Below, in pieces: positions 5,970 to 29,325 of a stretch of DNA of 34,868 nt; position 1 is the first letter of the stretch; every line of letters begins with the position of its first letter. A program made the translations under genes and the position numbers. This DNA comes from a bacterium (GTDB taxonomy: Bacteria > Omnitrophota > Gorgyraeia > Duberdicusellales > 4484-171). The DNA lies in assembly GCA_021796115.1 (NCBI GenBank), contig JAJYOP010000002.1:134842-169709 (forward strand), given 5' to 3'. The notes beneath the pieces are model-generated. The model was not told the origin of the DNA, made no database searches, and worked only from the letters and a program-made list of their open reading frames with translations.

Positions 5970-6338
5970 ATGGACAAAAAGAAATTAATCCTCATATGCG
6001 ATGATGAAGAAGGCGTACGCGAATCATTAAACCTCATTTTGGGCGATGACTATAAACTGGATTTTGCCCATAACGGCAATGACGCCCTGCAATACCTTAA
6101 GAAAAATAATCCTGACTTAATCATTATGGACATTAAAATGCCCCAAAAGAACGGGCTTGAAGCATTAAAAGAAATACGCCAGCAAAACTTGAAATGCAAA
6201 ATCATCATGGTCACCGGTTACCAGAGTGTTGAAACCGCATCCGAGGCCAGCAAATACAACATCTTCGAATACATCACCAAGCCTTTTGAATCTTCGGTAG
6301 TCAAAGAAACGGTCGAAAAAGCCTTAAAGAATATGTAG
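5970..6338 (+). CDS. Single-domain response regulator (CheY-like)
   Basis: A receiver domain with no output domain, 122 residues. The acidic pocket is D11-D12, the phosphorylated aspartate is D54 in LIIMDIKMPQKNG, and the switch residues T82 (MVTGYQ) and K104 (YITKPF) are present, so it should accept phosphate from a histidine kinase. GGAGG at 5958-5962 precedes ATG 5970 by 7 nt. The membrane kinase gene at 6424 follows on the same strand after a palindromic repeat, so it is the obvious partner. With no DNA-binding domain, it would act by protein contact or in a phosphorelay. The stop codon abuts the repeat at 6340. Confidence 0.93.
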   Translation: MDKKKLILICDDEEGVRESLNLILGDDYKLDFAHNGNDALQYLKKNNPDLIIMDIKMPQKNGLEALKEIRQQNLKCKIIMVTGYQSVETASEASKYNIFEYITKPFESSVVKETVEKALKNM

Positions 6339-6339
6339 A

Positions 6340-6414
6340 CGGATTCAAACGGATGGCTACGGATGTCACGGATAAATCCATCCGTTTGAATCCGCAATAA
6401 TCCGCGACATCCGT
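6340..6414. repeat. ACGGATG-family palindromic repeat, interleaved A-B-A'-B' form
   Basis: A compact copy of the repeat with no gene inside. A, CGGATTCAAACGGATGG (6340-6356), is the perfect complement of A' (6378-6394, 17 bp). B, ACGGATGTCACGGAT (6359-6373), complements B' (6400-6414) at 14 of 15 positions. A/A' and B/B' hairpins cannot form together without an unlikely long pseudoknot, so they are alternatives. It fills the gap from the response regulator stop to 9 bp before the kinase start and has replaced any ribosome binding site there. Confidence 0.85.
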
Positions 6415-6423
6415 TCCCCCTAT

Positions 6424-8051: not shown

Positions 8052-10208
8052 CTATTTCTTGGGAAGTTCGATAATAAATCTGGTTCCTTGCATTTCGGCA
8101 GTTTCAAACCAGATCTTCCCCTTATGATTTTCTTTGATAATCCGGCCGACCACATACATGCCGATACCTGTACCGGATTTATATGAAGATTTGGTGGTGA
8201 AAAATGGGGCAAAAATTTTATGCTTATTTTCCTCTTTTATGCCGCTTCCATTATCGGAAATTTCGATTCGCGAATAAGTAGCATTTTGAATCAATTTAAG
8301 CTTAACTTTGGGCTGAAACGCAAACTTCTCCTCTCCTTCAAAATGGTTTTTCTTATCAATCGCTGCCTCGTAACTATTATCAATTAGATTGTAAATCGCT
8401 TCCATTATCTGTGCCTTCACGCCATACAATAAATCCGAATCGCCCAAATCACATTTTAAAGGAAATTCTGTAGTTTCATGTTTTATTTTAAGAAGTTCCA
8501 AAGAAACATCAATTATTTCTTTTAAAGAAAAATAGGAAAAAAATGTTTCTTTTTCCTCAACGCGGGCATAATTTAAAATACCTTTTACGATACCGTCAGT
8601 TCGCTTTACATTTGTAATTAACGAATCGGAGATTTGCTCGGCATATTCAAAAGTTTTCTTAAGATCAGGGGTTTGCGCCATGAGTTCAGGATGCTTTTTT
8701 TCAAAATCCTGCAGCTCGCATTTAAGCTCTCCTGACGCGATAGAAAAATGATTGAGCCGATTTTTTATTTGATGCGCCAAACCATCAGCCATACCTCCGA
8801 TTGAAGCAAGTTTTTCGGCATTAAATATTTTCTCCTGGGCATTCCTGAATTCTTCAAAAAATAAACAGTTCTCGATGGCCATGGTTGTCTGGTGGGTAAG
8901 TATCTTAAAAACATTAATGTCATCTTCCGTATAATGTTCACGATTATTCTTTTCGCCAAGAACCACGAAACCCAAAAGATTATTTTCAACTATGGATGGC
9001 ACGATAAGACTTATCTGTTTTGGAAATTTTAAATGACTTCGTATAAACAATGGTAATTCTTCATATAAAAGAGGCTCTTTTCTGTCTTTCAAGTAAGCCA
9101 CAAATAAATCATCATAAGAAAATTCTATGGAATCATATATTGCACCAGAATCTCTGACCGCTTTTAGAAGATACTTTTTTTGTTCCTTATTTTCAAGAAC
9201 AATAGCGGCGAAATCAATTTTTACAATGCGCTTTACTATATAAACTACGAGCTTAGATAGATGATTGAGACTATGTTCTCTCGCCATTCCACTAGCAGCC
9301 TGAAGTAATAATTTTTGATAGCGTTTTTGGTCAGCCATAAATCTTTCCTCTACTCCTCTTCTAATTTGATCATAGGCTAAAGGAGCAAGTGTTGCAAAAA
9401 ATGTCATCAGACCAACCGGCGCAAGCCACCAATGCTTACCACATATTGGGTATAACACGGGATACATCCTGTAAGCAAAAAAGAAAGGTACCCCCAACAA
9501 AAAACTATAACTTATTAAAAACGCAACAGCACGAGAAATAAAGAGGCGAATATCCATAAGGCGATATTTTAAAATTGCGTAAGTAGCAATAATAGTATAG
9601 ATAGGGATAGTAAAATTTCCGAAAGGATAAATATTTATACCAAATATCGGCAGAAGAGTTGACCCACCACCAAGAAATCCAGTTATGAATCCGACAAAAA
9701 GATATTTTGCCTGAGTACGTTTAATACCTTTTGAATTTTTGTAATATCTAATGAGTTCAAAATGTCCTAAACAAACAAAAACAAGCCAGATCAGAAATGC
9801 TATAGGATAAATTAACCCAGATGATTTTGCATAATAAAGGCCAAAGAATGGTTTTGTCTGTGAGATAAATAAATTTGTTGTAAGATTTAAAATTTGGAAG
9901 AATATTACTTGGATATAAGCAAAAATAATAGTTTTTCTTCTATTAATTTCGCAAAAAAGGCAGGTCATATGATAAAAGAAAACAGCAATAAATACTCCTC
10001 CTAAATGAGCGAATCTCCAACTAATAAGCGCCTCAGAAACGGTAGTGGCTCGACCAACAAAGAATGAACCAATTCCCCAAATGCATATCGCAACATTACA
10101 TAAAAGCCATATTCGATGGAGTTTAGTTTTGCCATAAATTAAAACAATAATCGCAACAACCAAGCAAGTAGATGCCAATAATAAACCAGCTATAGAAAAA
10201 AAGTTCAT
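8052..10208 (-). CDS. Membrane histidine kinase with GAF domain (PrsK-like)
   Basis: A 718-residue sensor kinase. About eight transmembrane helices cover residues 5-290, with the same YAILKYRLMDIRLFISRA signature as the kinase at 6424. A GAF domain spans about 305-450 and ends in the usual HQTTMAIENCLFFEEF helix. The phosphorylated histidine is H479 in GMADGLAHQIKNRLNHF, and the ATPase domain shows IYNLIDNSYEAA (N box), ISDNGSGI (G1), FAPFFTTK and SGTGIGMYV (G2). The layout resembles PrsK of PEP-CTERM/XrtA systems, but no PEP-CTERM genes are seen. It is the last gene of the biosynthetic operon: the CrtI-like gene ends 8 nt before its start. That placement suggests it senses or controls the product of the locus. 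No partner regulator is next to it on this strand. Confidence 0.9.
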   Translation of the reverse strand: MNFFSIAGLLLASTCLVVAIIVLIYGKTKLHRIWLLCNVAICIWGIGSFFVGRATTVSEALISWRFAHLGGVFIAVFFYHMTCLFCEINRRKTIIFAYIQVIFFQILNLTTNLFISQTKPFFGLYYAKSSGLIYPIAFLIWLVFVCLGHFELIRYYKNSKGIKRTQAKYLFVGFITGFLGGGSTLLPIFGINIYPFGNFTIPIYTIIATYAILKYRLMDIRLFISRAVAFLISYSFLLGVPFFFAYRMYPVLYPICGKHWWLAPVGLMTFFATLAPLAYDQIRRGVEERFMADQKRYQKLLLQAASGMAREHSLNHLSKLVVYIVKRIVKIDFAAIVLENKEQKKYLLKAVRDSGAIYDSIEFSYDDLFVAYLKDRKEPLLYEELPLFIRSHLKFPKQISLIVPSIVENNLLGFVVLGEKNNREHYTEDDINVFKILTHQTTMAIENCLFFEEFRNAQEKIFNAEKLASIGGMADGLAHQIKNRLNHFSIASGELKCELQDFEKKHPELMAQTPDLKKTFEYAEQISDSLITNVKRTDGIVKGILNYARVEEKETFFSYFSLKEIIDVSLELLKIKHETTEFPLKCDLGDSDLLYGVKAQIMEAIYNLIDNSYEAAIDKKNHFEGEEKFAFQPKVKLKLIQNATYSRIEISDNGSGIKEENKHKIFAPFFTTKSSYKSGTGIGMYVVGRIIKENHKGKIWFETAEMQGTRFIIELPKK

Positions 10209-10216
10209 TGTGTTAT

Positions 10217-11632
10217 TTATTTAGAATTAATTCTTTCTTTGCGCAAAATCAACTTCGCTGTATTGTTGCCTAAATATGCGACTCCGCCCACACCTTGTGC
10301 TAAAGTGGACCAATGACTGCATAGGTATAGGTTTTCAATAGGTGTAATTTGAGTTAAACCAGGCTCGGCAAACTGGGAAGGCATGCTTGCCCAACCATAA
10401 GCAGCACCTTTTTGATTTAAAGTAGTTTTATATAGAACGTATGGTGTTGTCATCTGCCGATAGACAATTTTTTGCGATAAGCACGGAAAAGATATTTCCA
10501 ATTTTTTAATAAGTTTAATCGATATTTCTTCTTTATGAGCGTTCCAGTATTCTTTACTATCAAAATTAGCATTAATGAATATCGAAATATTTTTTTTAGT
10601 AAAAATATGCATCATATATTCCGCGATATTATTAGCCCCTCTTTTTTCTGCACCAATATATAACTTTTCTATATCATAATGTGGCAAATACCAGACATTT
10701 GAACCCTCCTTTGGCAATTTTTCTATTTCATTGTCAAAACCAAGATATAGTATAAACATCGATAGCGATGTTTTCATAGTAGACAATTTATTTAGAAAAT
10801 GCTTATCAACGATGGTTTCTCCTAGTAAGCAAGAAAATGTCTGGATTGCATCAATATTTGAAATTACATATTTTGAAGACATGGATATGTTTTTTTTTGC
10901 TAATATTATTTCCATTGTTTTATTATTTTTTATATCGATTTTTTTTACTAAATTGCTCAAAATTAACTCTCCGCCATAATCATTAAATTTATGAGCTAAT
11001 ACATCCGCAAAAGTTTGCATATTCCCACTTGGATAATACCCACCATCAAACATAAATTCTTGATAAAGCTTAAGTGCCGCAAAGGCTGACGCTAATGAGG
11101 GTGGCAGGCCAATATTACCAAGCACAGGAAACCCTAGAATTGCTTTTAGCTCCGCATTGGCGAAATAACGATCAAGTAAGTCTTTAAAAGTATTATTTCG
11201 TATTGACACTAATGAAATGTTATTATGATTTAGTAAATAACTGAAAAAATCTTTAATATTTTTTGCTTCTTTGGGGAAATTTTCTTGAAATTCCTGAATT
11301 GTTTTTCTAAAATCTGACCAAAAAAATATCCTATGGTTAGGTGTAATAATGATATCTGAAGGATCAGATCTATTTAAAGTAATTTCATTAGTTAGGTTTA
11401 ATTCCTCAATAATTTTTGTAATATTACCGTTCTTACGACAACTTCCAAGCGAATGAACAAACGTATCAAAACTAAAACCTTTCGAAGAAAAGGATGTGCA
11501 ATATCCACCTACCTTTGGATTTTTTTCTATAATTACCGTTTTAAGACCTGCTTTAGCAAGATAACATCCACAAACAAGCCCACCTACACCGGCACCAATG
11601 ACAATGGCATCATAATCGTATTTGCTTAACAT
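10217..11632 (-). CDS. CrtI-like FAD-dependent oxidoreductase in the ketosynthase operon
   Basis: A 471-residue flavoprotein of the phytoene desaturase/carotenoid isomerase/retinol saturase superfamily. The FAD-binding fold starts at once: YDAIVIGAGVGGLVCGCYLA, then VIIEKNPKVGGYCTSF, and the C-terminal flavin contact GVGGVAYLGNNTAKLIL. Members add, remove or isomerise double bonds in hydrophobic chains. The gene starts 1 nt after the stop of the ketosynthase at 11634 and ends 8 nt before the kinase, so it is embedded in the operon and probably acts on the acyl chain made by it. CrtI-like proteins are also part of proposed ladderane loci of anammox bacteria; the link here is inference. The direction (desaturase, isomerase or saturase) cannot be decided. 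Confidence 0.85.
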   Translation of the reverse strand: MLSKYDYDAIVIGAGVGGLVCGCYLAKAGLKTVIIEKNPKVGGYCTSFSSKGFSFDTFVHSLGSCRKNGNITKIIEELNLTNEITLNRSDPSDIIITPNHRIFFWSDFRKTIQEFQENFPKEAKNIKDFFSYLLNHNNISLVSIRNNTFKDLLDRYFANAELKAILGFPVLGNIGLPPSLASAFAALKLYQEFMFDGGYYPSGNMQTFADVLAHKFNDYGGELILSNLVKKIDIKNNKTMEIILAKKNISMSSKYVISNIDAIQTFSCLLGETIVDKHFLNKLSTMKTSLSMFILYLGFDNEIEKLPKEGSNVWYLPHYDIEKLYIGAEKRGANNIAEYMMHIFTKKNISIFINANFDSKEYWNAHKEEISIKLIKKLEISFPCLSQKIVYRQMTTPYVLYKTTLNQKGAAYGWASMPSQFAEPGLTQITPIENLYLCSHWSTLAQGVGGVAYLGNNTAKLILRKERINSK

Positions 11633-11633
11633 A

Positions 11634-12935
11634 TTAATCTATTTTTTTAAAAATACTTGCCGCATTGTAACCGGCAAATGCACAACATATTTTCATAGCC
11701 ATATTTAACTTAATTTCTTTTCTCTCTTTAACCAAAGAAATATTAAATTTTGGATCGAGAGTATCACAATTTAAAGTAGGAGGGATAACATTATTATTTA
11801 AAGAAAGTAAAAGTGCAACTGTTTCAAGAAGAGCGCTGCTTCCTAAGTTATGTCCCAAATAAGGTTTAAATGCCGTAATTAAAGGTTTTTTTGGACTTAG
11901 ACCAAAGACATCGGTTATCGCTTTGGCCTCATAATAATCAATGGGTTGAGAGCCTATCCCATGTGGACAAAGAAAATCTATTTCATTTTTATCAATATAA
12001 CTATTTTTAAATGCCGACTGAATAGCTTTTTGATAAGAATCACTTCCGATTTGTGGAACGGTTATTTTCCATCCTTCGAGATTAAATCCCCCACCGATGT
12101 ATTCTGCGTAAATTTGAGCATTACGATTTTGCGCCGAAAATAAATCTTCCATAACTATACCGGCTCCACCGTCACCAAAAACAAGACCATTACTATTTTT
12201 GGCAAAAGGTCGTATTTTCCCGTCAGGAGAATATATTTTCAAATTTTTAAACCAAAGATATTTATATATATCGGAACAATCGGCTGTCGCAACAACAACA
12301 GCGCTTGCTTGTCCTTGTTTTATTATTTGACTCGCCGCCTCGAGAGCATACAAACCAGAGGCGCAGGCATTATTTAAGAACAGTGAATAACTATGGACAT
12401 TGAAAACTCTTGCTACATGAAACAAATCCGCAAAGGTTTGCACATCGTAACCACTTTTTAAGAATTTGCGATAAAACTCATCAAAAAAAACTTTTTTGCT
12501 AATTTCATTTTTGCGCTTATCAATCAACATCTCGTAGGCAAGATTACTAACCTTAAAACCAAAAGGCATCAATCCAATATTTTCATGCGCCAAGACCAAA
12601 CTAATTCTATTATCTTCAGAATTATATTTTAGTTTACTGTCATCAAGGGCCAATTTCACTGCAGCAATAAGATAGCTAAGATCAATTACTTCCTCCCCTT
12701 CTTTCCATTCTTTAATATCATTTAACTTATCTTTATCAATACCAAAATCAGCAATATTGAATTTATCGATTTTATGCAAATGAAATGAATCCCATTGTTC
12801 ATTACCAATAAAACATTTTTCTAGCTTTAAGTTAATTCTTTTCTGTAAAATGCCTTTCCAAAATTCATCTTTTCCGATACCAACTGAACTTATGGGGCCT
12901 ATCCCCGTTATAACTATTCTTTTCTTATTTTCCAT
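11634..12935 (-). CDS. Divergent beta-ketoacyl-ACP synthase (active-site residues intact), KS1
   Basis: Condensing enzyme of the FabF/KS superfamily that would extend an ACP-bound chain by decarboxylative condensation with malonyl-ACP. The thiolase fold is complete and the catalytic set is visible: C191 in NNACASGLYALEA, H325 in CPHGIGSQ (usually HGTGT), K357 and H362 in FKPYLGHNLGSS. At 433 residues it is longer and much more divergent than the other two active ketosynthases here, with an odd middle (135-170) between the core strands. It overlaps the upstream ACP gene by 11 nt, so translation is coupled and this ACP may be its partner. A role in priming or in a distinct elongation step, like the extra KS of aryl polyene loci, is a guess. 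Confidence 0.88.
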   Translation of the reverse strand: MENKKRIVITGIGPISSVGIGKDEFWKGILQKRINLKLEKCFIGNEQWDSFHLHKIDKFNIADFGIDKDKLNDIKEWKEGEEVIDLSYLIAAVKLALDDSKLKYNSEDNRISLVLAHENIGLMPFGFKVSNLAYEMLIDKRKNEISKKVFFDEFYRKFLKSGYDVQTFADLFHVARVFNVHSYSLFLNNACASGLYALEAASQIIKQGQASAVVVATADCSDIYKYLWFKNLKIYSPDGKIRPFAKNSNGLVFGDGGAGIVMEDLFSAQNRNAQIYAEYIGGGFNLEGWKITVPQIGSDSYQKAIQSAFKNSYIDKNEIDFLCPHGIGSQPIDYYEAKAITDVFGLSPKKPLITAFKPYLGHNLGSSALLETVALLLSLNNNVIPPTLNCDTLDPKFNISLVKERKEIKLNMAMKICCAFAGYNAASIFKKID

Positions 12936-13194
12936 CTGATTTCTTCTTTAAGGCATCTTTGACGATTTCGATGACTTGACCTACGGTAGTTATTTGAGGT
13001 ATTTGCTCATCGCGTACGGTAACTTTGTATCTACGTTCGATTGCAACAGTAATAGCAATTGCTTTAATGGAATCAACCCCTAAATCACTCCAAAAATTAG
13101 TAGTGATTTCTAATTCTTCTGGACTTATCCCTATCGTTAAAGCAATAAGTTGTTTTAGTTCATTCTCTAAATTATCTGGGATGTTATTTTGCAT
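12925..13194 (-). CDS. Acyl carrier protein 1
   Basis: Small acidic carrier that holds the growing chain on a phosphopantetheine arm. The attachment serine lies in the GVDSIKAIAI motif (S42 from the chosen start), and the four-helix pattern is typical of ACPs in type II systems. I chose ATG 13192-13194, which has AAGGAGG at the right distance (GGAGG 13203-13207); a GTG three codons earlier overlaps that site and is less likely. It lies between the ketosynthases KS2 (gap 18 nt) and KS1 (overlap 11 nt), which fixes it in the operon. It differs clearly from the second carrier at 19174, so the two may serve different steps. No phosphopantetheinyl transferase is in the window. Confidence 0.92.
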   Translation of the reverse strand: MQNNIPDNLENELKQLIALTIGISPEELEITTNFWSDLGVDSIKAIAITVAIERRYKVTVRDEQIPQITTVGQVIEIVKDALKKKSDGK

Positions 13195-13212
13195 AATATT
13201 CACCTCCTTCCA

Positions 13213-14442
13213 TCAACGTTGTATTTTGTCATTAAAGTTGGGCCTTTTGAACACTAAGCAGGAATTGTTGCCACCAAAAGCAAATGCATTATTTAAAACA
13301 ATATTTACTTTTTGTTTTCTGGCTTTATTAGGAACACAATCTATATCACATTCCGGATCTGGTGCTTTATAATTTATTGTGGGTGGTATGACACTATTTA
13401 CAATTGCAAGGCAACAACTTGCGGCTTCGATAGCAGACGCAGCGCCCATACAATGTCCCAACATAGATTTAATAGAGCTGACTGCAACTTTTTTTTCGCC
13501 GAAAACTTTCTTGATTGCAGCACACTCGGATTTATCGTTATTTTTTGTACCGGTTCCGTGAGCACTTATATAATCGACTCCTTCGGCAGAAATACCTGTT
13601 TTGGCTAATACGTTTTGTATGCATTTTGCAATACCGTCGACACTAGGATTAGTCATGTGGGTTGCGTCACAACTTAATCCATAACCTAATATTTCCGCAT
13701 ATATAAAAGCATTTCTACTTAAAGCTGATTCCAATGTTTCTAAAATCAAAATCGCTGAACCCTCACCAACAAGCATTCCCTTTCTGTTCTTATCAAAAGG
13801 CTGACATTCTTCTTGAGCCATTGCCGATAACTGGCTAAAACCGGTAAAGGAAATGTAAGAAAACGCGTCAGAACCGCCAGCAATAACTGTATCTGCTTTG
13901 CCTAGTTGAATAAGATCAAAGCCATAACCTATAGCATAATTACCGGCTGCACAAGCAGTAGTAAATACTCTATTTACCCCTTTAACTTTAAGCTCCATTG
14001 CAACATTAGAAGAAATGTTACTTACTGGGTACTGAATTATTGACCAGCGATCAACCGCATCCTTACCTTTCTCTACCCATGTAGCATCCATTTTTTCAAT
14101 CTCTTGCGCTTCTCCACCTGTAGTGCCAATAAGAACACTAATTTTTTTTGGGTTTAGCCTCGCGAAAGATAAATCAGAATCCTTAATGGCTAGTTTTGTT
14201 GCCGCAATAGCAAAGTGTGATGCCCGCCCCATTAATTTTACTTTTTTCTTTTCTAAGAAATTGCTAGGCTCAAAATCACGAATTTGTCCGCCATAATGGT
14301 TAAAATGCCTTGAAGTGTCAAACGCGTCAACCTTGGAAATCCCCGATTTTCCTAAGATTAAATTATCCCAGAAAATTTTTTTGCCGGTGCCTATAGAGCT
14401 GATAACACCTAACCCCGTAACAACAACTCTTCTTTTATTCAT
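13213..14442 (-). CDS. Beta-ketoacyl-ACP synthase, catalytically intact, KS2
   Basis: FabF-type ketosynthase of 409 residues. The catalytic residues are all present: C164 in TTACAAGNYAIG, H295 in SAHGTGTKNND, K325 and H330 in SIKSMLGHCMGAAS, plus the closing NNAFAFGGNNSCLVF. It is closely related to KS4 (16239-17450), sharing long stretches such as MGRASxFAIAATK and SSIKSMLGHCMGAAS, so the two arose by duplication. It overlaps the upstream dehydratase gene by 4 nt (ATGA type) and is followed by ACP1. The upstream neighbour in the operon is a chain-length-factor-like protein (14881), its likely heterodimer partner as in type II polyketide synthases. Confidence 0.93.
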   Translation of the reverse strand: MNKRRVVVTGLGVISSIGTGKKIFWDNLILGKSGISKVDAFDTSRHFNHYGGQIRDFEPSNFLEKKKVKLMGRASHFAIAATKLAIKDSDLSFARLNPKKISVLIGTTGGEAQEIEKMDATWVEKGKDAVDRWSIIQYPVSNISSNVAMELKVKGVNRVFTTACAAGNYAIGYGFDLIQLGKADTVIAGGSDAFSYISFTGFSQLSAMAQEECQPFDKNRKGMLVGEGSAILILETLESALSRNAFIYAEILGYGLSCDATHMTNPSVDGIAKCIQNVLAKTGISAEGVDYISAHGTGTKNNDKSECAAIKKVFGEKKVAVSSIKSMLGHCMGAASAIEAASCCLAIVNSVIPPTINYKAPDPECDIDCVPNKARKQKVNIVLNNAFAFGGNNSCLVFKRPNFNDKIQR

Positions 14443-14876
14443 AGCTTCACTATAAATATCAATTCCGCTTTAGCAATTTCTCTATTTTCGACAAACGCCT
14501 TAGCATCTACAAAACTACCTGTGGACATTATTTTAGCCGCAATAACTTCAATTCTCAATTGATCGCCAGGAAATACTGGTTGTTTGAATTTTGTATTTAT
14601 TGAGCCGAGATAAAATTTAGAATTTTTGGTCATTTTATCTTTATATGCGCTCCAATAAAGCACGATTGACGCCTGCGTCATTGCTTCGATAATTAACACT
14701 CCCGGCATAACCGGATTTTGCGGAAAATGTCCCTGAAAAAAATGCTCATTAATAGATAAATTCTTAATCGCTACAACACGCTTACCAGGATCTAACTCCG
14801 TTACCCTATCAATAAAAATAAACGGGAAACTTTGCGGTAAGATTTTTTGTATTTGGTTTATATCGAGCACTTCCAT
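14439..14876 (-). CDS. FabZ-type 3-hydroxyacyl-ACP dehydratase, first copy
   Basis: Hot-dog-fold dehydratase that removes water from a 3-hydroxyacyl-ACP to give the trans-2-enoyl-ACP. Counting from the chosen start, the catalytic histidine is H50 in FFQGHFPQNPVMPG and the acid is E64 in LIIEAMTQAS, both as in FabZ. The usual LPHRYPFLLVDRV opening appears as LPQSFPFIFIDRV, a change shared in part with the second dehydratase (LPQRYPF). I chose ATG 14876, 4 nt after the preceding stop, because it aligns with the start of the second copy; a TTG at 14900 would overlap the CLF gene. At 145 residues it is of normal length. No enoyl reductase accompanies it, so the double bonds may stay in the product. 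Confidence 0.92.
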   Translation of the reverse strand: MEVLDINQIQKILPQSFPFIFIDRVTELDPGKRVVAIKNLSINEHFFQGHFPQNPVMPGVLIIEAMTQASIVLYWSAYKDKMTKNSKFYLGSINTKFKQPVFPGDQLRIEVIAAKIMSTGSFVDAKAFVENREIAKAELIFIVKL

Positions 14877-14880
14877 ATTA

Positions 14881-16122
14881 TTAGCTTTTATATCTTCCAA
14901 TAATTAACGAGGTACACACCCCATTGGGACCAAAGCTATTTATCATAATCTTAGAAACCTCTTTATTGCGCGCCTTATTTGGCATATACTCTAAATCACA
15001 ATTTTTATCTTTCTCTTTATAATTTATAGTAGGAGGCAATATTCCCTTGGTTAACGCTCCCAGGGCCGCAATAGTTGCAAATCCACCAGAAACACTGAAA
15101 GATTCTCCAAGTGCAGACTTAACTGCGATAACATGAATTTTATATGCATATTCATCAAATAAATCTTTTATAACTTTTGTTTCAATGTAATCAGCATCTT
15201 TCGTAGAATTGGCATTGGCAAACACACAGTCAATATCTTTCGGAAAAAGACCAGCAGCCTTTAAAGCTTTTTTCATTGCCTTTTTCATCCCATATCCTTT
15301 TGGATTATATTTATAAAATTTTGCTGGATCAAAACAAGAACCAATACCTAGAATCTCAGCATAAACAACTGTGCCAGTTTTCTTGGCATATTCTTCATCC
15401 TGTAAAATTAATGTTGTTGCACCTTCAGAAAAGATAATGCCATTGCGGCGATTATCGAAAGGACAACTTAGCGGCGCAGCTGAAGTGTTTTTTAAACCCG
15501 ATAAATAGTTTAATTTATAAAAACCTAAAAAAGTCTGCATAGATAAATCTTCTACTGCACCGGCCACAATCGTATCTGCCTTATCTAGACAAATAAAATC
15601 ATTTGCATAATCTATGGCGTCGAGTGCCGCGCTCATGCCAGTTGATATGGTTGAATTGAATCCTTTAATTTGAAATTTAATAGAAATTCTTGAGGCGGGA
15701 GAATTTGCAACTGTATTAGGAAAGATAATAGGATTTACATAGCGAGGACCTTCGGTGAGAGATTCTCGATCGAATTTTGAAATACTATGGAGACTGCCAA
15801 ATGTTGTACCAACAGAAACCCCTGTACGATAAGTATTACTCTCGTCAATTTTTAGGCCAGCATCTTCAAGGGCAAGTTTTGTTGCTGACAATAAAAGAAG
15901 TGTGGCTCTATCTAAATCAAGCAACCCTTTTTCGCCAAGAATCGCTTTTGGATTAAAATTCGTAATTTCGCCAGCGATTTTAACTTTGAGATCTTTTGTA
16001 TCAAAAAGAGTTATATCACGGAATCCGGATTGACCGGCAAAAAGATTTTTCCAGAACTCATTTTTACCAATACCAATAGGCGAAACAACGCCAATTCCAG
16101 TTATAACTACTCTTTTACCCAT
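14881..16122 (-). CDS. Chain-length-factor-like ketosynthase homologue (catalytic residues lost), first copy
   Basis: Ketosynthase fold without ketosynthase chemistry, as in KS-beta/CLF of type II polyketide synthases, which pairs with an active KS and sets chain length. The active-site region reads STGMSAALDA, with Met163 in place of Cys; the first histidine is N303 (FANANST instead of SAHGTGT); the second is E340 (VKSALGE instead of IKSMLGH). The lysine K335 is kept. The STG-x-S/T context is like that of KS-alpha/CLF proteins. It heads the second operon, followed 4 nt later by a dehydratase and then KS2. It has no Shine-Dalgarno; TATAAT lies 7 nt before ATG 16122. It is a paralogue of the protein at 20460. 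Confidence 0.9.
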   Translation of the reverse strand: MGKRVVITGIGVVSPIGIGKNEFWKNLFAGQSGFRDITLFDTKDLKVKIAGEITNFNPKAILGEKGLLDLDRATLLLLSATKLALEDAGLKIDESNTYRTGVSVGTTFGSLHSISKFDRESLTEGPRYVNPIIFPNTVANSPASRISIKFQIKGFNSTISTGMSAALDAIDYANDFICLDKADTIVAGAVEDLSMQTFLGFYKLNYLSGLKNTSAAPLSCPFDNRRNGIIFSEGATTLILQDEEYAKKTGTVVYAEILGIGSCFDPAKFYKYNPKGYGMKKAMKKALKAAGLFPKDIDCVFANANSTKDADYIETKVIKDLFDEYAYKIHVIAVKSALGESFSVSGGFATIAALGALTKGILPPTINYKEKDKNCDLEYMPNKARNKEVSKIMINSFGPNGVCTSLIIGRYKS

Positions 16123-16129
16123 TATTGTG

Positions 16130-16158
16130 ATTATATCATCAAAATTACGAAAAATTAA
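16130..16158 (-). promoter_or_regulatory. Candidate promoter of the CLF-DH-KS-ACP-KS-CrtI-kinase operon
   Basis: A consensus TATAAT (16130-16135, minus strand) lies 7 nt before the ATG, with a weak TTAATT (16153-16158) 17 bp further up. If used, transcription would begin at or next to the start codon, giving a leaderless message. The 116-bp gap to KS4 holds no other feature that I can name. Confidence 0.4.
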
Positions 16159-16238
16159 CCATTCTTGCGCTAAAATTGACTTTTTTAAACAACAAAAAAG
16201 CTTTATAAAGACAGGTAAATAATTCTTGCATCAGAAGC

Positions 16239-17450
16239 TTATGAATAGCAGGGCTTACCCAAAACAACACAGCAGTTATTACCACCGAACGCAAAGCCGT
16301 TATTCAAAGCTGTTTTTACTTTTATTTTTCGTGCGTTATTCGGCACGCAATCGATGTCACATTCCGGGTCAGGTATTTTTAAATTTATGGTAGGTGGAAC
16401 TATATCCTCTTTTATGGCTAGACAACAGGCAATGGATTCAAGGGCACTGGCTGCGCCCATGCAATGGCCAAGCATTGATTTAATTGAGCTTACTGCAACT
16501 TTTCTGTCGTCAAAAATCTCATTTATCGCCCCAGATTCTTCTTTATCGTTTTGCACGGTACCGGTTCCGTGGGCACTGATATAGTCAATATCACATAGAG
16601 AAATATTTGCGTTTTTTATGGCTTTGGTCATTGATTTTTTTATGCCAATCCGACTGGGTATGGTCATATTGTAAGCATCGCAGGAAAGCCCGTATTCTAA
16701 AACTTTTGCGTATATCGATGCGTTTCTTTGCTTTGCTCGTTCAAGTGATTCTAAGATCAAAATGCCGGCGCCCTCGCCAAGCAGCATACCGTGTCTATCT
16801 TTATCAAACGGTGAGCAAACATCCGGAGACATAGCATACAATCTTTGGAAACCTTGAAATGCGACACGGGAAAGGCTGTCTGCTCCGCCAACGATAGCAA
16901 AATCAATTTCGCCTTTTCTGATTAAATCAAAACCATAGCCCAAAGCGAAATTTCCGGCGGCACAGGCATTGGGAATTAAAAGGTTTTCGCCTTTAGTTTT
17001 TAGGAAATATCCTATATTTCTGGCGATGGATGGAGAAAAAACATTCATCAATAACTGCTTGGTTATACTATCCCACTCGTCTTTTATAAACATCCGGCCG
17101 GAAACATCTATCACATTGGCTTCAGCCATAGTTGTGCCGATAATTACGGCTAATTTTTCATTTTCGATATTAGCTATGGGAAGTTTGGAATCTTCCAGGG
17201 CAGACTTGGTTGCGGCAATGGCAAATTGTGAAGCGCGACCCATAAATTTGGCGATATTTTCCGGAATAAAATCGCTTGTGTTGAAATTTTTGATTTCTCC
17301 GGCATTATGACGTTTGAATTTTGAAGTATCAAATTGAGTTACTTCGCTAATCCCGGACTTACCCGTTAAAATATTCTTCCAAAATTCGTCTTTGCCGATT
17401 CCGACTGAAGTAACTGCCCCGAGTCCGGTGACTACAACCTCTTGATTCAT
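16239..17450 (-). CDS. Beta-ketoacyl-ACP synthase, catalytically intact, KS4
   Basis: FabF-type ketosynthase of 403 residues, closely similar to KS2. Catalytic residues are C163 in PNACAAGNFALGYG, H294 in SAHGTGTVQND, K324 and H329 in SIKSMLGHCMGAAS. The longer reading that begins at 17483 (MEFGAWSLEF) is translated from the flanking repeat; the real start is ATG 17448-17450, which opens with the normal NQEVVVTGLGAVTS. Everything immediately upstream is the arm of the four-helix element, so the native ribosome binding site has been displaced and none is visible. It is the last gene of the first module, after the second dehydratase. Its natural partner would be the CLF at 20460, by analogy with KS2 and its CLF. 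Confidence 0.93.
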   Translation of the reverse strand: MNQEVVVTGLGAVTSVGIGKDEFWKNILTGKSGISEVTQFDTSKFKRHNAGEIKNFNTSDFIPENIAKFMGRASQFAIAATKSALEDSKLPIANIENEKLAVIIGTTMAEANVIDVSGRMFIKDEWDSITKQLLMNVFSPSIARNIGYFLKTKGENLLIPNACAAGNFALGYGFDLIRKGEIDFAIVGGADSLSRVAFQGFQRLYAMSPDVCSPFDKDRHGMLLGEGAGILILESLERAKQRNASIYAKVLEYGLSCDAYNMTIPSRIGIKKSMTKAIKNANISLCDIDYISAHGTGTVQNDKEESGAINEIFDDRKVAVSSIKSMLGHCMGAASALESIACCLAIKEDIVPPTINLKIPDPECDIDCVPNNARKIKVKTALNNGFAFGGNNCCVVLGKPCYS

Positions 17451-17453
17451 AAT

Positions 17454-17923
17454 AAATTCCAAGCTCCAAGCACCAAATTCCAATGTTCAAATGACCAAAA
17501 CATTATTTCAAGATTGAAGAAAAGATTTTTTTAAATTCTATCGCTTCTCCTCGTAAAACCATTACTTCGCCTCTCAAGTCTTCACTGTTTGTATCTACAA
17601 GCAAACTTAGCCAATAAGCTGACTCTTTAGCTTCTTTTCGGCATATCTTAATTCGCATCAAAAAATCTTTTTTACTCAATGCTTCATTAGCCTCGATATA
17701 ATTTGCGCCAATCGAGCTCGAAGCTCTTATTAATTGTCGCACATACTCGATATTCGAGGTATTTTTCGGAAACTTTTTACTTAAAATAGCCACACTCAGT
17801 GCAAATTTATAAGTACGTTCTTCTAAATCATATTTTGGAACAACCCTCTCTGTCCTCGTTTTGGAAATTGTAATTTCGGTCATTGGAATTTATTTGGTGC
17901 TTGGAATTTGGGATTTGGAATTT
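17454..17923 (-). mobile_element. Inverted-repeat element carrying the four-helix-bundle gene
   Basis: The small gene at 17503-17883 is bounded by imperfect inverted arms of about 45 bp. The left arm (17454-17502) begins AAATTCCAAGCTCCAAGCAC and continues through CCAATGTTCAAATGACC; the right arm (17880-17923), read on the minus strand, begins AAATTCCAAATCCC and holds CCAAGCACCAAAT and TTCCAATGACC. A gene-free copy of the same arms lies at 20258-20446. The element separates the second dehydratase from KS4 and supplies the last codons of the former. Outer boundaries are judged from where similarity between the copies stops. Confidence 0.65.
17503..17883 (-). CDS. Four-helix-bundle protein (S23 / rRNA intervening-sequence family)
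   Basis: A 126-residue all-helical protein of the S23 family, first known from intervening sequences in 23S rRNA of Leptospira and others and related in fold to the Avd protein of diversity-generating retroelements. Diagnostic segments are YDLEERTYKFALSVAILSKK, ASSSIGANYIEANEALSKKD and MRIKICRKEAKESAYWLSLL. Function is not established; the basic surface suggests nucleic acid binding. The start ATG 17881-17883 lies in the right arm of the repeat, so the first residues (MTEITISK) derive from it. Here it is not in an rRNA gene but between two fatty-acid genes of one operon. No reverse transcriptase or variable repeat is nearby. Confidence 0.9.
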   Translation of the reverse strand: MTEITISKTRTERVVPKYDLEERTYKFALSVAILSKKFPKNTSNIEYVRQLIRASSSIGANYIEANEALSKKDFLMRIKICRKEAKESAYWLSLLVDTNSEDLRGEVMVLRGEAIEFKKIFSSILK

Positions 17924-18378
17924 TTAATCGTTTCTTTAAGCATAACTCCGAACATAATCCGTGCTTTGGTTACAACTTCATCATTAACTTTGGCTATGGC
18001 ATTAACTACTCCGGCATTAGCCATAAGTTTTTCTTTGCTAATTTCAATCACAAGCTGGTCCCCAACTGTAACCGGCTTTATGAATTTTGCTTCGACTTTA
18101 CCGAAATAATAAGTAGGGTGCTGGCTTGCAATTTCCGGTTTTAAGGCAGCAAAACCTAGAATGCTTGCCTGTGCCATAGCCTCAAGGATAATTACACCGG
18201 GAACTACCGGCATCCCGGGAAAGTGGCCGACAAAAAAATGCTCATCGTTCGTAAAATTTTTAAGACAGGTTATTTTACCTATTGTGATATCTACAGCTAA
18301 TACTCTGTCGATAAAAATAAAAGGGTAGCGCTGTGGTAGAATCTCCTGAATTTTATTTATATCCCAAATTCCTTCCAT
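17890..18378 (-). CDS. FabZ-type 3-hydroxyacyl-ACP dehydratase, second copy, with repeat-derived tail
   Basis: Dehydratase of the FabZ hot-dog family. Catalytic H52 is in FFVGHFPGMPVVPG and E66 in IILEAMAQAS; the opening DINKIQEILPQRYPFIFIDR matches the first copy. The protein is 162 residues, about 15 longer than the first copy. The last 11 codons and the stop (KNSKSQIPSTK) are read from the arm of the neighbouring four-helix element, so the native stop was lost when the element arrived. The extra tail is unlikely to harm the hot-dog core. The gene begins 3 nt after the HEPN gene, so the toxin-antitoxin-like pair is co-transcribed with it. Confidence 0.92.
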   Translation of the reverse strand: MEGIWDINKIQEILPQRYPFIFIDRVLAVDITIGKITCLKNFTNDEHFFVGHFPGMPVVPGVIILEAMAQASILGFAALKPEIASQHPTYYFGKVEAKFIKPVTVGDQLVIEISKEKLMANAGVVNAIAKVNDEVVTKARIMFGVMLKETIKNSKSQIPSTK

Positions 18379-18381
18379 AGG

Positions 18382-18780
18382 CTATAATTTTTTCGTGATA
18401 ATTCGCTCTATTGCATCAGCGCATTTGATGGCTTCTTGCGCTTTTTCCCGATTTAACGGCGGATAATGCGATGGATACTTTAATGGAATATAATAAAAGT
18501 TCAATTTTCGGCATTTATTTTCAATCCTTTTAACCCCTTTATCATTCTTTGAAATATGCAAGCATTGCCGGAAAAGCGTAACTAAATCATGAATTTTGGG
18601 CGGGTTAATTCCGTTTACGCTGATATAAGCTTTTAAATATTTTTCGGCAGAATCATGGCAAAGAATGCATATTTGTGAATAAAAGTTGTTAAACTCAGTA
18701 AAACTACACCTGGCAAAGTTTAAATCACTTTTTGCTTTTGAGAGCCATTCTTTAATTAACGGAGTAACCTTTTCTTTCAT
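18382..18780 (-). CDS. HEPN-domain protein (partner of the adjacent nucleotidyltransferase)
   Basis: A 132-residue helical protein of the HEPN class (PF05168-like): the segment KEWLSKAKSDLNFARCSF, then CHDSAEKYLKAYISVNG and PKIHDLVTLFRQC, and the typical YYIPLKYPSHYPPL loop. The RNase motif R-x4-6-H is not obvious, so nuclease activity is uncertain. HEPN-MNT pairs are known as toxin-antitoxin systems in which the nucleotidyltransferase modifies the HEPN protein. I chose ATG 18780; it overlaps the nucleotidyltransferase gene by 29 nt, whereas the longer start at 18825 would overlap by 74 nt. It sits inside the biosynthetic operon, 3 nt before the dehydratase gene. Confidence 0.85.
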   Translation of the reverse strand: MKEKVTPLIKEWLSKAKSDLNFARCSFTEFNNFYSQICILCHDSAEKYLKAYISVNGINPPKIHDLVTLFRQCLHISKNDKGVKRIENKCRKLNFYYIPLKYPSHYPPLNREKAQEAIKCADAIERIITKKL

Positions 18781-19096
18781 AAAGCACTTTACCTTTTTCG
18801 ATAATTTCTCGTAAAAAATAATCATTTAAAGAAAGTCTTTTTCGAATTTCTGATGGGGTATAGACTAATAAATCTATAGGCACCGAATGATCCATAAATT
18901 TTTCTATCATTTCCTGCCTTTTCCAGGGATTACTTTTTGTTTTTTTAATTATCATTAAATCAACATCGGAATCCTTCCTGAATTTCCCATGCGCCAAGGA
19001 ACCAAAAAGAATTATAGCTTCAGGCTTATATCTGGTTTTAAGCCGCCAAACTATGTTTGTTATTTTTTTACGTAATACACGATTTCGTTTTTCCAT
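18752..19096 (-). CDS. Minimal nucleotidyltransferase (MNT, MntA-like)
   Basis: A 114-residue protein of the DNA polymerase beta-like nucleotidyltransferase fold. The active-site pattern is GSLAHGKFRKDSDVDLMII, with G32-S33 and the metal-binding D44-x-D46. It is followed by and overlaps a HEPN gene, the usual MNT-HEPN order. In studied pairs the MNT protein adds AMP to the HEPN toxin to silence it; that role is inferred here from family. It lies 77 nt after ACP2 in the same direction. The gap (19097-19173) contains a short GC-richer stretch around 19130-19150 (GCCCTGCCTGCCAGCAGC) without a clear function. Confidence 0.87.
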   Translation of the reverse strand: MEKRNRVLRKKITNIVWRLKTRYKPEAIILFGSLAHGKFRKDSDVDLMIIKKTKSNPWKRQEMIEKFMDHSVPIDLLVYTPSEIRKRLSLNDYFLREIIEKGKVLYERKGYSVN

Positions 19097-19173
19097 ATCG
19101 ATATTTACAATCCAATATTTTTTGCGACTTTACGCCCTGCCTGCCAGCAGCACTTCTTTGGGATTTTGCGGTG

Positions 19174-19431
19174 TTACTTCATAGCTAGTTTTGCCACCAA
19201 ATCATAAACATTCTGCAAAGAACGTATGTTGGGTATTTCGTTCTCCGGGATAATTATTTTATATTTCTTTTCGATGCTGGCGACAATTTCTAAGGCCATC
19301 ATGCTGTCAATGCCTAAATCTTCGCCGAATGTGGCATCGTCTTTTATTTCTTCAGGGCTTTTTTCGGCAATATCAGCAACTAATTTTTTGATTTCGCTCC
19401 TATAATCACCAAGGTTTGACACTTCAGGCAT
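19174..19431 (-). CDS. Acyl carrier protein 2
   Basis: An 85-residue acyl carrier with the phosphopantetheine site S43 in EDLGIDSMMALEIVASIE. The sequence is closer to canonical ACPs of fatty acid and aryl polyene systems than ACP1, which has GVDSIKA. AAGGAGG lies just upstream of ATG 19431, giving a strong ribosome binding site. It follows the ketoreductase gene by 51 nt and precedes the MNT-HEPN pair. A small hairpin precedes its ribosome binding site. Confidence 0.94.
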   Translation of the reverse strand: MPEVSNLGDYRSEIKKLVADIAEKSPEEIKDDATFGEDLGIDSMMALEIVASIEKKYKIIIPENEIPNIRSLQNVYDLVAKLAMK

Positions 19432-19447
19432 GTTAATCCTCCTTTAT

Positions 19448-19472
19448 AATGTTACGTAACTTCCGTAACATT
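19448..19472 (-). promoter_or_regulatory. Hairpin in the FabG-ACP2 gap
   Basis: AATGTTACG (19448-19456) and CGTAACATT (19464-19472) form a perfect 9-bp inverted repeat with a 7-nt loop, immediately before the AAGGAGG of ACP2. The CGTAAC word occurs three times in 30 bp. It could influence translation or processing of the ACP message, or be the relic of another repeat. Confidence 0.4.
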
Positions 19473-19482
19473 CGTAACTTTT

Positions 19483-20229
19483 TTATATCGCCAATCCGCC
19501 GTCTACTCTGATTACTTCTCCGGTAAGATAACTTGCCTTCTCGGAAGCAAGAAATGTGCAAATCAAAGCAACTTCTTCCGGGGTTCCAAGCCTCTTAAGC
19601 GGAACTAATTTGAGTATTTCTTTCTTTAAGTCCTCGCGCAATGAACCAACCATGTCCGTTTCGATAAAGCCCGGGCAAACCACATTAACCCGTATACCAT
19701 AGGCAGCTACTTCTTTGGCCAAAGCCTTGGAAAAACCGATGATTCCCGCCTTAGAAGCGCTATAATTAGTTTGCCCAACCAGCCCCACGATTCCGCTTAC
19801 CGAACTCATATTTATTATACAACCTTTTTTCTGCTTTAGGAAGGTTATGATTGCGGCTTTGGTCATATTGAAGGTACCGTAAAGATTTGTTTCGATAACA
19901 TCTTTCCACTCTTCTGCCAGCATCATAAAAAGCGCTTTGTCCTTTTTGATACCGGCATTATTAACCAGTATTTCTACTTGTTTAAAATGTTCGAGAGTTT
20001 TCTGCACAACTGCATAGCATTGGTCATAATCACGCACGTCGGTTTGTAAAGACAGGCAGTCAACGCCGAATTTTTTTATTTCCACAACCAAGTCGTCGGC
20101 TTCTTTTTGGCTTTTATTAAAGGTAAAAACTACGTTCGCGCCCTGTTTGGCAAATTCCAGACAGCAGGCTTTGCCTATACCGCGTGAACCGCCCGTAATA
20201 ATTACGGTTTTACCTCTCAAATCGCTCAT
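19483..20229 (-). CDS. fabG: FabG-type 3-oxoacyl-ACP reductase
   Basis: NADPH-dependent short-chain dehydrogenase that reduces 3-oxoacyl-ACP to 3-hydroxyacyl-ACP. The 248 residues show TGGSRGIGK (13-20) for the cofactor, NNAG (90-93), and the catalytic set S143, Y156, K160 in MSSVSG and NYSASKAG. The C-terminus GEVIRVDGGLAI is typical. It is the only ketoreductase in the locus, so it would have to serve both modules. There is no Shine-Dalgarno; TAATAT lies 7 nt before ATG 20229, which suggests it begins a transcription unit after the repeat at 20258-20446 split it from the CLF gene. Assignment to this pathway rather than to primary fatty acid synthesis rests on context. Confidence 0.93.
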   Translation of the reverse strand: MSDLRGKTVIITGGSRGIGKACCLEFAKQGANVVFTFNKSQKEADDLVVEIKKFGVDCLSLQTDVRDYDQCYAVVQKTLEHFKQVEILVNNAGIKKDKALFMMLAEEWKDVIETNLYGTFNMTKAAIITFLKQKKGCIINMSSVSGIVGLVGQTNYSASKAGIIGFSKALAKEVAAYGIRVNVVCPGFIETDMVGSLREDLKKEILKLVPLKRLGTPEEVALICTFLASEKASYLTGEVIRVDGGLAI

Positions 20230-20257
20230 AATTGATATATTATCGCACAGATATTAG

Positions 20258-20446
20258 AAAATTCCAAGTGCCAAGCACCAAATTCCAAATAAGCTCCAAA
20301 CTCCAATGTTCAAATGACCGAAACAGGTTACGTTTGTAACATTGAACATTTGGTCATTGGAATTTATTTGGTGTTTGTCCGCCACCGATGATTTTTTATA
20401 TGTGGGCGGCCTCGCCTCTGGCAGAGAATTTGGGATTTGGAATTTC
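20258..20446. repeat. Gene-free copy of the four-helix element, with a nested 48-bp insert
   Basis: The stretch carries both arms of the element at 17454-17923 but no gene: left arm with CCAAGCACCAAATTCCAA and CCAATGTTCAAATGACC (to about 20320), a short centre with GTTACGTTTGTAAC, and the right arm from GAACATTTGGTCATTGG to GGGATTTGGAATTT. Between GGTGTTTG and GAATTTGGG lies an extra 48 bp (20378-20425) absent from the other copy; it has its own inverted repeat, CCGCCAC against GTGGGCGG, and is GC-rich. The repeat separates the CLF from FabG. Confidence 0.7.
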
Positions 20447-20459
20447 ATAGTTTGTAAGT

Positions 20460-21692
20460 CTATACGTATTTTTCAAGAATACACGCGCTATTGTAGCCGC
20501 CGGGGCCAAAAGATACAACCAGTGCAAGTTTTACATCTTTCTTTTGCGCCTGGTTTGGCACACAATCAATATCACATTCCGGGTCTTTTTCTTTATAATT
20601 TATCGTTGGCGGCACCACTCCGCTCTGCATTGCGCCGATACAGGAAGCGATTTGCAAAGCTCCCGAAGCAGAAAGCGTTTCACCAAGCGCCGATTTTATT
20701 GAACTGACCGGTATTTTTGCTATTCTTTCGCCGAAAATATTCTTCAAAACCTTGACCTCGATTTTATCCAAATCTTGTGAAGAATTAGCGCAACTCGAAA
20801 TATAATCGATTTCCGAAGCTGATACTCCGGCATCACTAATGGCTTTTCGTATTACAATTTCAAGCCCTTCGCCTTCCGGATGGATTTTGCCAATCCTGTA
20901 TCCGTCAAAAAAACAGGAGACACTTTTTAGTTTAGTAAATATTTGCGCATTACGCGATTTTGCGCTTGCCTCATCCTCTAGACAAAACATCGCAGCTGCT
21001 TCTGCCAGCACCGGGCCATTTCTACGTTTATCAAATGGAGAGCTTATTGCTTCACCATTAATACCGGCCATATATCCCAGTTTATAAAATCCAAAATATA
21101 ACGAAAGCGTTAACGATTCGACCGCGCCGCATAAAACTATCTTTGCCTTGCCATTATCAAGTAGTTCACGCGCATATTTCAATGCTTGCAGGGCTGAAGT
21201 ATAACCGGTGCTCACTGAAGCGTTAAAGCCCTGGATATTAAAACGTATCGAAACCTGCGAAGACGCCGCGTTCAGCACTGTTGACGGGAAAAGTGCCGGG
21301 TTAGAAAATTCAAGCCCGTCTTTAAACACCTCTCTGTCAAACTCAAGCATCGAGGATAAATGCGGGAAGGTTGTCCCGGTTGAAACACCGATTTCGTCAG
21401 TGTTTGCTTCGGTTATCTGAAGATTTGCTTCATCCAGGGCTAATTTCGCCGCAGCCATTAAAAAAAGGGAGCTACGGTCTAAGTTTCGTAAACCTTTCTG
21501 GCCAAGATAGGTTTTGGGGTCGAAGTTTTGAACTTCTCCGGCAATGTGGACGGAAAATTTATCCGTAGGAAAGGATTCGATATTCGATATACCGGATATA
21601 CCTTTTTCCAAAAAACCCCAAAATGCCTCTTTTCCAATCGCGCCAGGCGCGACAATTCCTATTGAACTGATTACATATTCGCGATTTGCCAT
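20460..21692 (-). CDS. Chain-length-factor-like ketosynthase homologue (catalytic residues lost), second copy
   Basis: A 410-residue ketosynthase-fold protein that cannot use the usual chemistry: Tyr164 replaces Cys in STGYTSALQA, C301 replaces the first His (YISSCANSS against YISAHGTGT), and E338 replaces the second His (SIKSALGE). Lys333 is kept. The same positions changed in the paralogue at 14881, but to different residues at the first two, so both are under similar relaxation yet have diverged for long. Expected role: the non-catalytic half of a KS/CLF pair that shapes the chain tunnel. It is the first gene of the upstream module, with TAAAAT 7 nt before the ATG and no Shine-Dalgarno. 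Confidence 0.9.
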   Translation of the reverse strand: MANREYVISSIGIVAPGAIGKEAFWGFLEKGISGISNIESFPTDKFSVHIAGEVQNFDPKTYLGQKGLRNLDRSSLFLMAAAKLALDEANLQITEANTDEIGVSTGTTFPHLSSMLEFDREVFKDGLEFSNPALFPSTVLNAASSQVSIRFNIQGFNASVSTGYTSALQALKYARELLDNGKAKIVLCGAVESLTLSLYFGFYKLGYMAGINGEAISSPFDKRRNGPVLAEAAAMFCLEDEASAKSRNAQIFTKLKSVSCFFDGYRIGKIHPEGEGLEIVIRKAISDAGVSASEIDYISSCANSSQDLDKIEVKVLKNIFGERIAKIPVSSIKSALGETLSASGALQIASCIGAMQSGVVPPTINYKEKDPECDIDCVPNQAQKKDVKLALVVSFGPGGYNSACILEKYV

Positions 21693-27430: not shown

Positions 27431-27803
27431 TATTTTTTTAATTCTTGGTTTTATAGCCATAAGCAATGCTTTTGATACCGTAAGAGAGCTTTTTTTAAAG
27501 TCAGCCGTAAATTCCGTAGGCGAGATTGGCGAATCTACTCTTAAAAATGTCTTAAAATTTATCTGGAAACTCGTGCAAAAACCCAAGGTATGGCTAAGTT
27601 TTGTCTGCAGCATACTTTCCCTTTTCTTTTACCTCTTTGTTCTTTCCAGGGCTGAATTAAATTTTGCTTTCTCGCTGGATAGCATGCACTATATTTTCAT
27701 CGCTTTCAGCGCAAAAATATTCTTAAAGGAAAAAGTCGGATTAAAGCGCTGGATGGGGACTGCTTTCGTGGTTTTAGGAATAATCATCGTTACGCTAAGC
27801 TAA
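27420..27803 (+). CDS. Half-size EamA/SMR-type transporter subunit (ArnF-like), second of a pair
   Basis: A 127-residue protein with four helices, ending in GTAFVVLGIIIVTLS, which matches the end of its partner. Other marks are FAFSLDSMHYIFIAFSAKIFLKEKV. The N-terminus MRANIFLILGFIAISNAFDTV opens with a helix like that of the partner. The 11-nt overlap (27420-27430) with the upstream gene means coupled translation. The 3' end overlaps the convergent CrtI-like gene by 4 nt. Confidence 0.85.
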   Translation: MRANIFLILGFIAISNAFDTVRELFLKSAVNSVGEIGESTLKNVLKFIWKLVQKPKVWLSFVCSILSLFFYLFVLSRAELNFAFSLDSMHYIFIAFSAKIFLKEKVGLKRWMGTAFVVLGIIIVTLS

Positions 27804-29305: not shown

Positions 29306-29325
29306 AACGATATTACAGGGGATTT

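Follow-up and report, generated by a model that had tools for sequence, protein, structure and literature searches.

The biosynthesis of ladderane lipids is unsolved. Candidate gene clusters of the anammox bacteria Kuenenia and Scalindua (kuste3603-3608, kuste2802-2805 and kuste3335-3352) combine a ketosynthase (KS) with a non-canonical FabF, in which Cys163, His298 and His333 are replaced and Lys328 is kept, and group these with FabZ, acyl carrier protein (ACP) and CrtI-like genes. Clusters of the antiSMASH class 'ladderane' are reported in Omnitrophota, Desulfobacterota and other phyla, with their function flagged as unknown, in one survey (PMC9902471), and a catalogue of pairs of KS and chain-length factor (CLF) includes Candidatus Omnitrophica (PMC10132072). 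Here, we describe such a locus from the 1.7-Mb draft genome (88% complete) of an Omnitrophota bacterium. It occupies positions 10217-21692, minus strand, of a 34,868-nt window that forms the end of contig C23 (G000:C23:134842-169709). We consider it likely that two ladderane-type type II polyketide/fatty-acid modules build a polyunsaturated ACP-bound chain, followed by the action of a CrtI-like enzyme and a third KS, release through an operon on contig C20, and sensing by a linked histidine kinase, HK2.

The locus encodes three intact KSs, two KS-fold proteins without catalytic residues (the CLFs), two FabZ-type dehydratases (DH), two ACPs, one ketoreductase (KR) and one CrtI-like flavoenzyme. 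All lie on one strand and no enoyl reductase is found within the locus, in agreement with the gene list and coordinates of an initial annotation of this DNA. To that list we add the MNT, HEPN and 23S-IVP (IVP) genes inside the operon, the terminal kinase HK2, and the strong divergence of KS1 from KS2 and KS4. Families were assigned with Pfam/NCBIfam profiles, with E-values far past chance level (KS2 to FabF, 1.7e-130; KR to FabG, 1.9e-92; DH2 to FabZ, 2.4e-46). The operon reads CLF5-KR-ACP1-[MNT-HEPN]-DH1-[IVP]-KS4-CLF3-DH2-KS2-ACP2-KS1-CrtI-HK2, with genes overlapping or separated by short gaps over most of its length:

20460..21692, minus strand: CLF5, module 1 chain-length factor with a KS fold, Y-C-K-E (Pfam KS N- and C-terminal profiles; clade with 9s5h_C)
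19483..20229, minus strand: KR, FabG-type ketoreductase, the only KR of the locus (TIGR01830, 309 bits, above cut-off)
19174..19431, minus strand: ACP1 of module 1 (PP-binding, 3e-13; shares 63% identity with another ACP, encoded on contig C20)
18752..19096, minus strand: MNT-type nucleotidyltransferase (Polbeta, 8.4e-14)
18382..18825, minus strand: HEPN protein, partner of the MNT gene (HEPN, 1.4e-23)
17890..18378, minus strand: DH1, FabZ-type dehydratase of module 1 (FabA/FabZ, 3.4e-24; NF000582 above cut-off)
17503..17883, minus strand: interleaved 23S-IVP four-helix protein (PF05635, 1.9e-15)
16239..17483, minus strand: KS4, ketosynthase of module 1 (C-H-K-H; phylogenetic partner of CLF5)
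14881..16122, minus strand: CLF3, chain-length factor of module 2, M-N-K-E (profiles, residues and tree)
14439..14900, minus strand: DH2, FabZ-type dehydratase of module 2 (best solved relatives discussed below)
13213..14442, minus strand: KS2, ketosynthase of module 2 (C-H-K-H; phylogenetic partner of CLF3)
12925..13203, minus strand: ACP2 of module 2 (PP-binding, 2.9e-13)
11634..12935, minus strand: KS1, divergent third ketosynthase (C-H-K-H; forms a separate clade with sequences of Omnitrophota and Nitrospirota)
10217..11632, minus strand: CrtI-like flavin adenine dinucleotide (FAD) oxidoreductase (TIGR02734/TIGR02733 matches under cut-off)
8052..10208, minus strand: HK2, seven-transmembrane (7TM)-GAF histidine kinase with H-box HQxxNR, last gene of the operon (8-bp gap from CrtI)

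KS1, KS2 and KS4 carry the catalytic residues C-H-K-H. Because Y-C-K-E in CLF5 and M-N-K-E in CLF3 replace these at the same positions, both CLFs should be unable to condense; they are full length (410 and 413 amino acids). The FabZ proteins, the ACPs and KR retain their motifs (His/Glu, Ser and Tyr-Lys, respectively). Both CLFs show the ladderane-type pattern: Cys163 and His298 are substituted, Lys328 is retained and Glu takes the place of His333. The residues given for Kuste3606 are Val163, Asn298, Tyr300, Gly302, Lys328 and Glu333 (PMC2649909, Table 2), and all six are found at the aligned columns of PDB 9s5h_C (pattern V-N-K-E). Because this match is exact, we assign 9s5h_C to Kuste3606 or a close orthologue. 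The 9s5h entry is not among the fold-search matches listed, so its identity rests on the residue match, and a literature search on 9S5H returned nothing relevant. The Kuste2805 pattern F-N-K-E (Phe163, Asn298, Lys328, Glu333; PMC2649909) is the commonest among the CLFs of the fetched loci; of 84 such CLFs, 82 have Lys-Glu and two Lys-Asp.

The KS-fold proteins were compared with reference sequences in a 48-row tree with bootstraps, to which the paired node supports below refer; an 82-row tree was concordant. KS2 and KS4 cluster with PDB 9s5h_B and Iga11 (96/89), apart from FabF, and CLF3 and CLF5 with 9s5h_C (100/100). Iga11 comes from a polyene-making system, and the inner node splitting the ladderane-type KSs from it is weak (85/61). 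Since KS2 and KS4 group with 9s5h_B and Iga11, and the CLFs with the Kuste3606-like 9s5h_C, the locus is, by its phylogeny, a ladderane-type KS/CLF system. It also holds FabZ, ACP and CrtI-like genes in one cluster with the KS-CLF genes, as ladderane-type clusters do. The best solved relatives of DH2 by sequence (8ayd, 7qv0 and 8ayb) are the anammox-specific FabZ proteins of Kuenenia and Scalindua. DH2 scores 139 bits against an LpxC-FabZ-like protein of its own genome and 133 bits against Kuenenia FabZ, values from different programs that are only roughly comparable, and a FabZ tree meant to tie DH1 and DH2 to anammox FabZ gave no resolution.

By general family name, proteins of the locus match FabF, FabZ and FabG best, as would be expected of ordinary fatty acid synthase duplicates serving housekeeping lipid synthesis. 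We give this idea almost no credence. KS2, KS4 and the CLFs do not cluster with FabF, the genome's own copy of which joins Listeria FabF (100/97); the inactive CLFs are preserved as a clade; and a separate FabH-FabD-FabG-ACP-FabF cluster lies on contig C25. The genome has 11 ketoacyl-synthase matches, and a further FabZ match lies within a 438-residue frame at C23:87881, which we take to be an LpxC-FabZ-like fusion, the LpxC part being presumed from length and known fusions. The initial annotation had suspected an unusual unsaturated lipid or pigment as the product, and the KS/CLF trees and the separate Fab cluster uphold a dedicated locus for an unusual lipid, with ladderane type as its class.

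A ladderane-type gene set does not imply a ladderane product. In favour of true cyclobutane lipids, made in the way suggested for anammox bacteria, the KS, CLF, FabZ, ACP and CrtI set resembles kuste3603-3607 (PMC4790861) and the CLF residues are of Kuste3606 type. However, the anammox candidate clusters additionally hold genes for radical S-adenosylmethionine (SAM) enzymes and SAM methyltransferases. Neither was found in the operon by scans of the window genes, and a survey of 86 loci gave no open reading frame with the radical SAM motif CX3CX2C at a distance of up to three genes from a KS, which disfavours ladderane rings. In addition, Desulfotalea psychrophila, whose clusters are similar, produced hydrocarbons of the C31:8 and C31:9 kinds but no ladderanes (PMC2649909). 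We therefore regard a true ladderane product as very unlikely.

The initial annotation described two modules, and these proved real, each with its own relatives in other loci. The KS4 and CLF5 clades are made up of the same five loci (L068 and L072-L075), and the KS2 and CLF3 clades of the same two (L058 and L124), a pairing that predicts KS4 as partner of CLF5 and KS2 as partner of CLF3. Module 1 stands alone (CLF5-KR-ACP1-DH1-KS4) in L049 and L051, and module 2 (CLF3-DH2-KS2-ACP2-KS1-CrtI-HK) in L058 and L124. Judged from these distributions, the locus is a tandem of two separately inherited modules. Two CLFs together with three KSs occur in the window locus only (one of 85 CLF-bearing loci), a statement about this sample, in which many loci are short. 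A CLF close to 9s5h_C was found in 84 of 383 sampled Omnitrophota genomes. The best 80 named loci are mostly from Omnitrophota and Nitrospirota, with single loci from Elusimicrobiota, Desantisbacteria and Myxococcota/Deltaproteobacteria. One locus (L132) is from a record named Planctomycetales bacterium Bin_37_8 that behaves like Omnitrophota: the window's relatives find matches in genomes of its phylum.

Module 2 ends in KS1, CrtI and the kinase. KS1 is far more divergent than KS2 and KS4, and is present in three of 37 genomes of the family. It lies directly ahead of CrtI, in the slot that a thioester reductase (PF07993/TIGR01746) holds in other clusters. Related clusters encode this thioester reductase or a cyanobacterial-type acyl-ACP reductase, the latter exemplified by L054 (4959-6077; TIGR04058; PDB 6jzq, 3e-31). 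The acyl-ACP reductase-like family recurs in Omnitrophota clusters (L054:4959-6077 and L053:18145-19737), its L053 member being fused to a polyketide-cyclase-like domain. In another genome (G009), the mini-operons KS1-CrtI-HK and ACP-KS1-HK stand alone (L190:9920-14806 and L191:9004-12591).

The window's own genome encodes a thioester reductase on contig C20 (L177:9544-14952), unlinked to the locus, in the order ACP-thioester reductase-CrtI-HK together with a 122-residue gene of response-regulator size, a probable response regulator. The ACP adjoining the reductase is the one that shares 63% identity with ACP1. Because C20 holds this ACP, thioester reductase, CrtI and kinase, the parts of the pathway are divided between two loci, and the C20 operon suggests that some chains exit as aldehydes or alcohols. 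At a distance of about 6 kb, the window holds a second CrtI-family gene, immediately preceded by one for an alpha/beta hydrolase (27800-30156, minus strand); in L053, a relative of this CrtI belongs to the cluster itself.

CrtI is succeeded on its own strand by a histidine kinase gene in 25 of 29 cases, three of these being cut at a contig end. HK2 belongs to a largely CrtI-linked clade of 15 kinases (Shimodaira-Hasegawa-like approximate likelihood ratio test, SH-aLRT, 99). The phospho-acceptor box is HQxxN in all 15, followed by Arg in 14, whereas ten other kinases of these loci have HExxNP. On the plus strand of the window, convergent with HK2, positions 5970-8043 encode a response regulator together with HK1, a further 7TM histidine kinase, which is outside the HQxxNR clade. 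In these clusters, proteins with an HD domain (HD_5) are repeatedly encoded next to the kinases and response regulators, for example at L053:2478-3689. We considered a polyenal (retinal-like) chromophore for the 7TM kinase and dropped it, as the 7TM part of the HK2 clade has no conserved lysine.

From the gene content, residues, family placement, phylogenetic pairing and linkage, we infer the following chemistry and order of steps. KS4-CLF5 and KS2-CLF3 heterodimers, each with its own ACP and FabZ and sharing one KR, would lengthen an ACP-bound chain. Because the locus has no enoyl reductase, the double bond formed in every round would be retained, giving a polyunsaturated acyl-ACP. CrtI would then oxidise or isomerise the chain, adjusting its unsaturation, and KS1, in the slot of the thioester reductase, may carry out a late extra condensation or chain transfer. 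The C20 operon would release the chain reductively as an aldehyde or alcohol, and HK2, whose role is putative, may be the dedicated sensor of the pathway. The product predicted as most likely is a polyunsaturated chain made on ACP and later tailored.

Several points weigh against this scheme. CrtI-like enzymes catalyse many reactions. Two Kuenenia CrtI homologues failed to replace CrtI in E. coli (PMC4790861). KS1 and a reductase occur together in one locus only once, and their exclusivity is only suggestive (p = 0.09 among CrtI-bearing loci). A complete primary fatty acid synthase had been looked for elsewhere in the genome. This was found in part, as FabF, FabH, FabD and FabG on contig C25, but the 88%-complete draft yielded no enoyl reductase of FabI or FabK type; the lack of one in the cluster is therefore weak evidence, and an unrecognised enoyl reductase may serve both pathways.

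The initial annotation had likened the locus to aryl polyene clusters, in which KS/CLF, KR, two DH and two ACPs give a fully conjugated, outer-membrane-anchored chain. The enzyme kinds are alike, and Iga11 lies inside the KS clade, yet the likeness proved weak. The aryl polyene KSs of E. coli stay outside the KS2/KS4 clade, although on long branches; the CLF there is half size (PMC8358021); and the locus lacks the AMP ligase, MMPL, LolA and acyltransferase genes of the E. coli cluster. A Pfam scan of the window genes showed no AMP ligase, thioesterase, MMPL or LolA-type gene, all of which E. coli has, and this bears out the absences of the first three noted earlier. An aryl polyene or similar conjugated pigment is thus quite improbable.

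A narrower, non-conjugated form of the proposed scheme is the synthesis of skipped-diene polyunsaturated fatty acids or hydrocarbons, as may occur in Desulfotalea, with FabZ and CrtI setting isolated double bonds and KS1 joining or ending chains. Related Desulfotalea clusters accompany C31 polyunsaturated hydrocarbons (PMC2649909), a link that is correlation only, and the acyl-ACP reductases of the relatives would yield hydrocarbon precursors. However, no FabA-type isomerase occurs among the genome's FabA/FabZ-fold matches, and we consider this form unlikely. There is likewise a small chance that the locus is part of a signalling circuit, in which the linked HQxxNR 7TM-GAF kinases, with neighbouring response regulators and HD-domain proteins, sense a polyunsaturated aldehyde, alcohol or ketone made by the KS-CLF system, or the resulting membrane state.

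The MNT/HEPN pair (18382-19096), although inside the biosynthetic operon, is probably not biosynthetic. Relatives of the 23S-IVP protein (57-59%) lie in or beside the related clusters L052 and L053. Elsewhere in the genome, a further KS of the ladderane/Iga clade is encoded with an ACP and a 298-residue CLF-like protein on contig C43 (L045:10078-12443), possibly a separate pathway. A KS pair with one inactive partner (K-D-K-N) lies on contig C6 with two cyclase-like proteins, esterases, a KR and a B12 radical SAM gene (L044:8197-17151); similar KS pairs, about 30% identical to CLF5, are found in many relatives.

Comparison with the known systems indicates what is particular to this locus. Like the ishigamide-type Iga11-Iga12 system (PDB 6kxd), compared through its KS and not its CLF, it has a KS of the same clade and combines KS/CLF, KR and DH with no enoyl reductase; by gene set and KS clade it may be an Iga-type polyene polyketide synthase, which would give a conjugated chain. 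We know of no CrtI or kinase tail in that type. Aryl polyene clusters (E. coli CFT073, Acinetobacter ApeO-ApeC) share KS/CLF, KR, DH and two ACPs, and differ in their half-size CLF (ApeC), aryl starter and export genes, and KS placement. The type II fatty acid synthase-like clusters of Desulfotalea psychrophila, compared by description and not by sequence, resemble it as a ladderane-like gene set whose host is not an anammox bacterium and made no ladderanes; unlike the locus, they keep radical SAM genes (PMC2649909). Anammox-type KS-CLF clusters without such genes, in Omnitrophota, Nitrospirota, Elusimicrobiota and others, part chain building from presumed ring-making and form a minimal set for expression, while the reductases and the constant coupling of CrtI to a kinase indicate a product class, polyunsaturated aldehydes, alcohols or hydrocarbons, that is searchable in anoxic waters.

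The suggestion that the locus as a whole may be a new type was not supported, since ladderane-type KS/CLF clusters of Omnitrophota are already known from antiSMASH surveys (PMC9902471) and a close CLF occurs in about one-fifth of the sampled genomes of the phylum. The published clusters very likely belong to the same KS/CLF family; the available part of that survey gives class calls, with no description of the tandem, KS1, the kinase tail or the reductases, and our searches of the open-access literature turned up no account of the tandem modules, of KS1, of the link to an HQxxNR kinase or of the reductases. Relative to the anammox clusters, the locus has no radical SAM or SAM methyltransferase genes and instead has two tandem modules, an extra KS1, a histidine kinase fixed to CrtI, and a thioester reductase operon elsewhere in the genome. 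Thus, it is the anatomy that is new: tandem, separately inherited modules, a divergent KS1, and a conserved CrtI-histidine kinase tail with the HQxxNR box.

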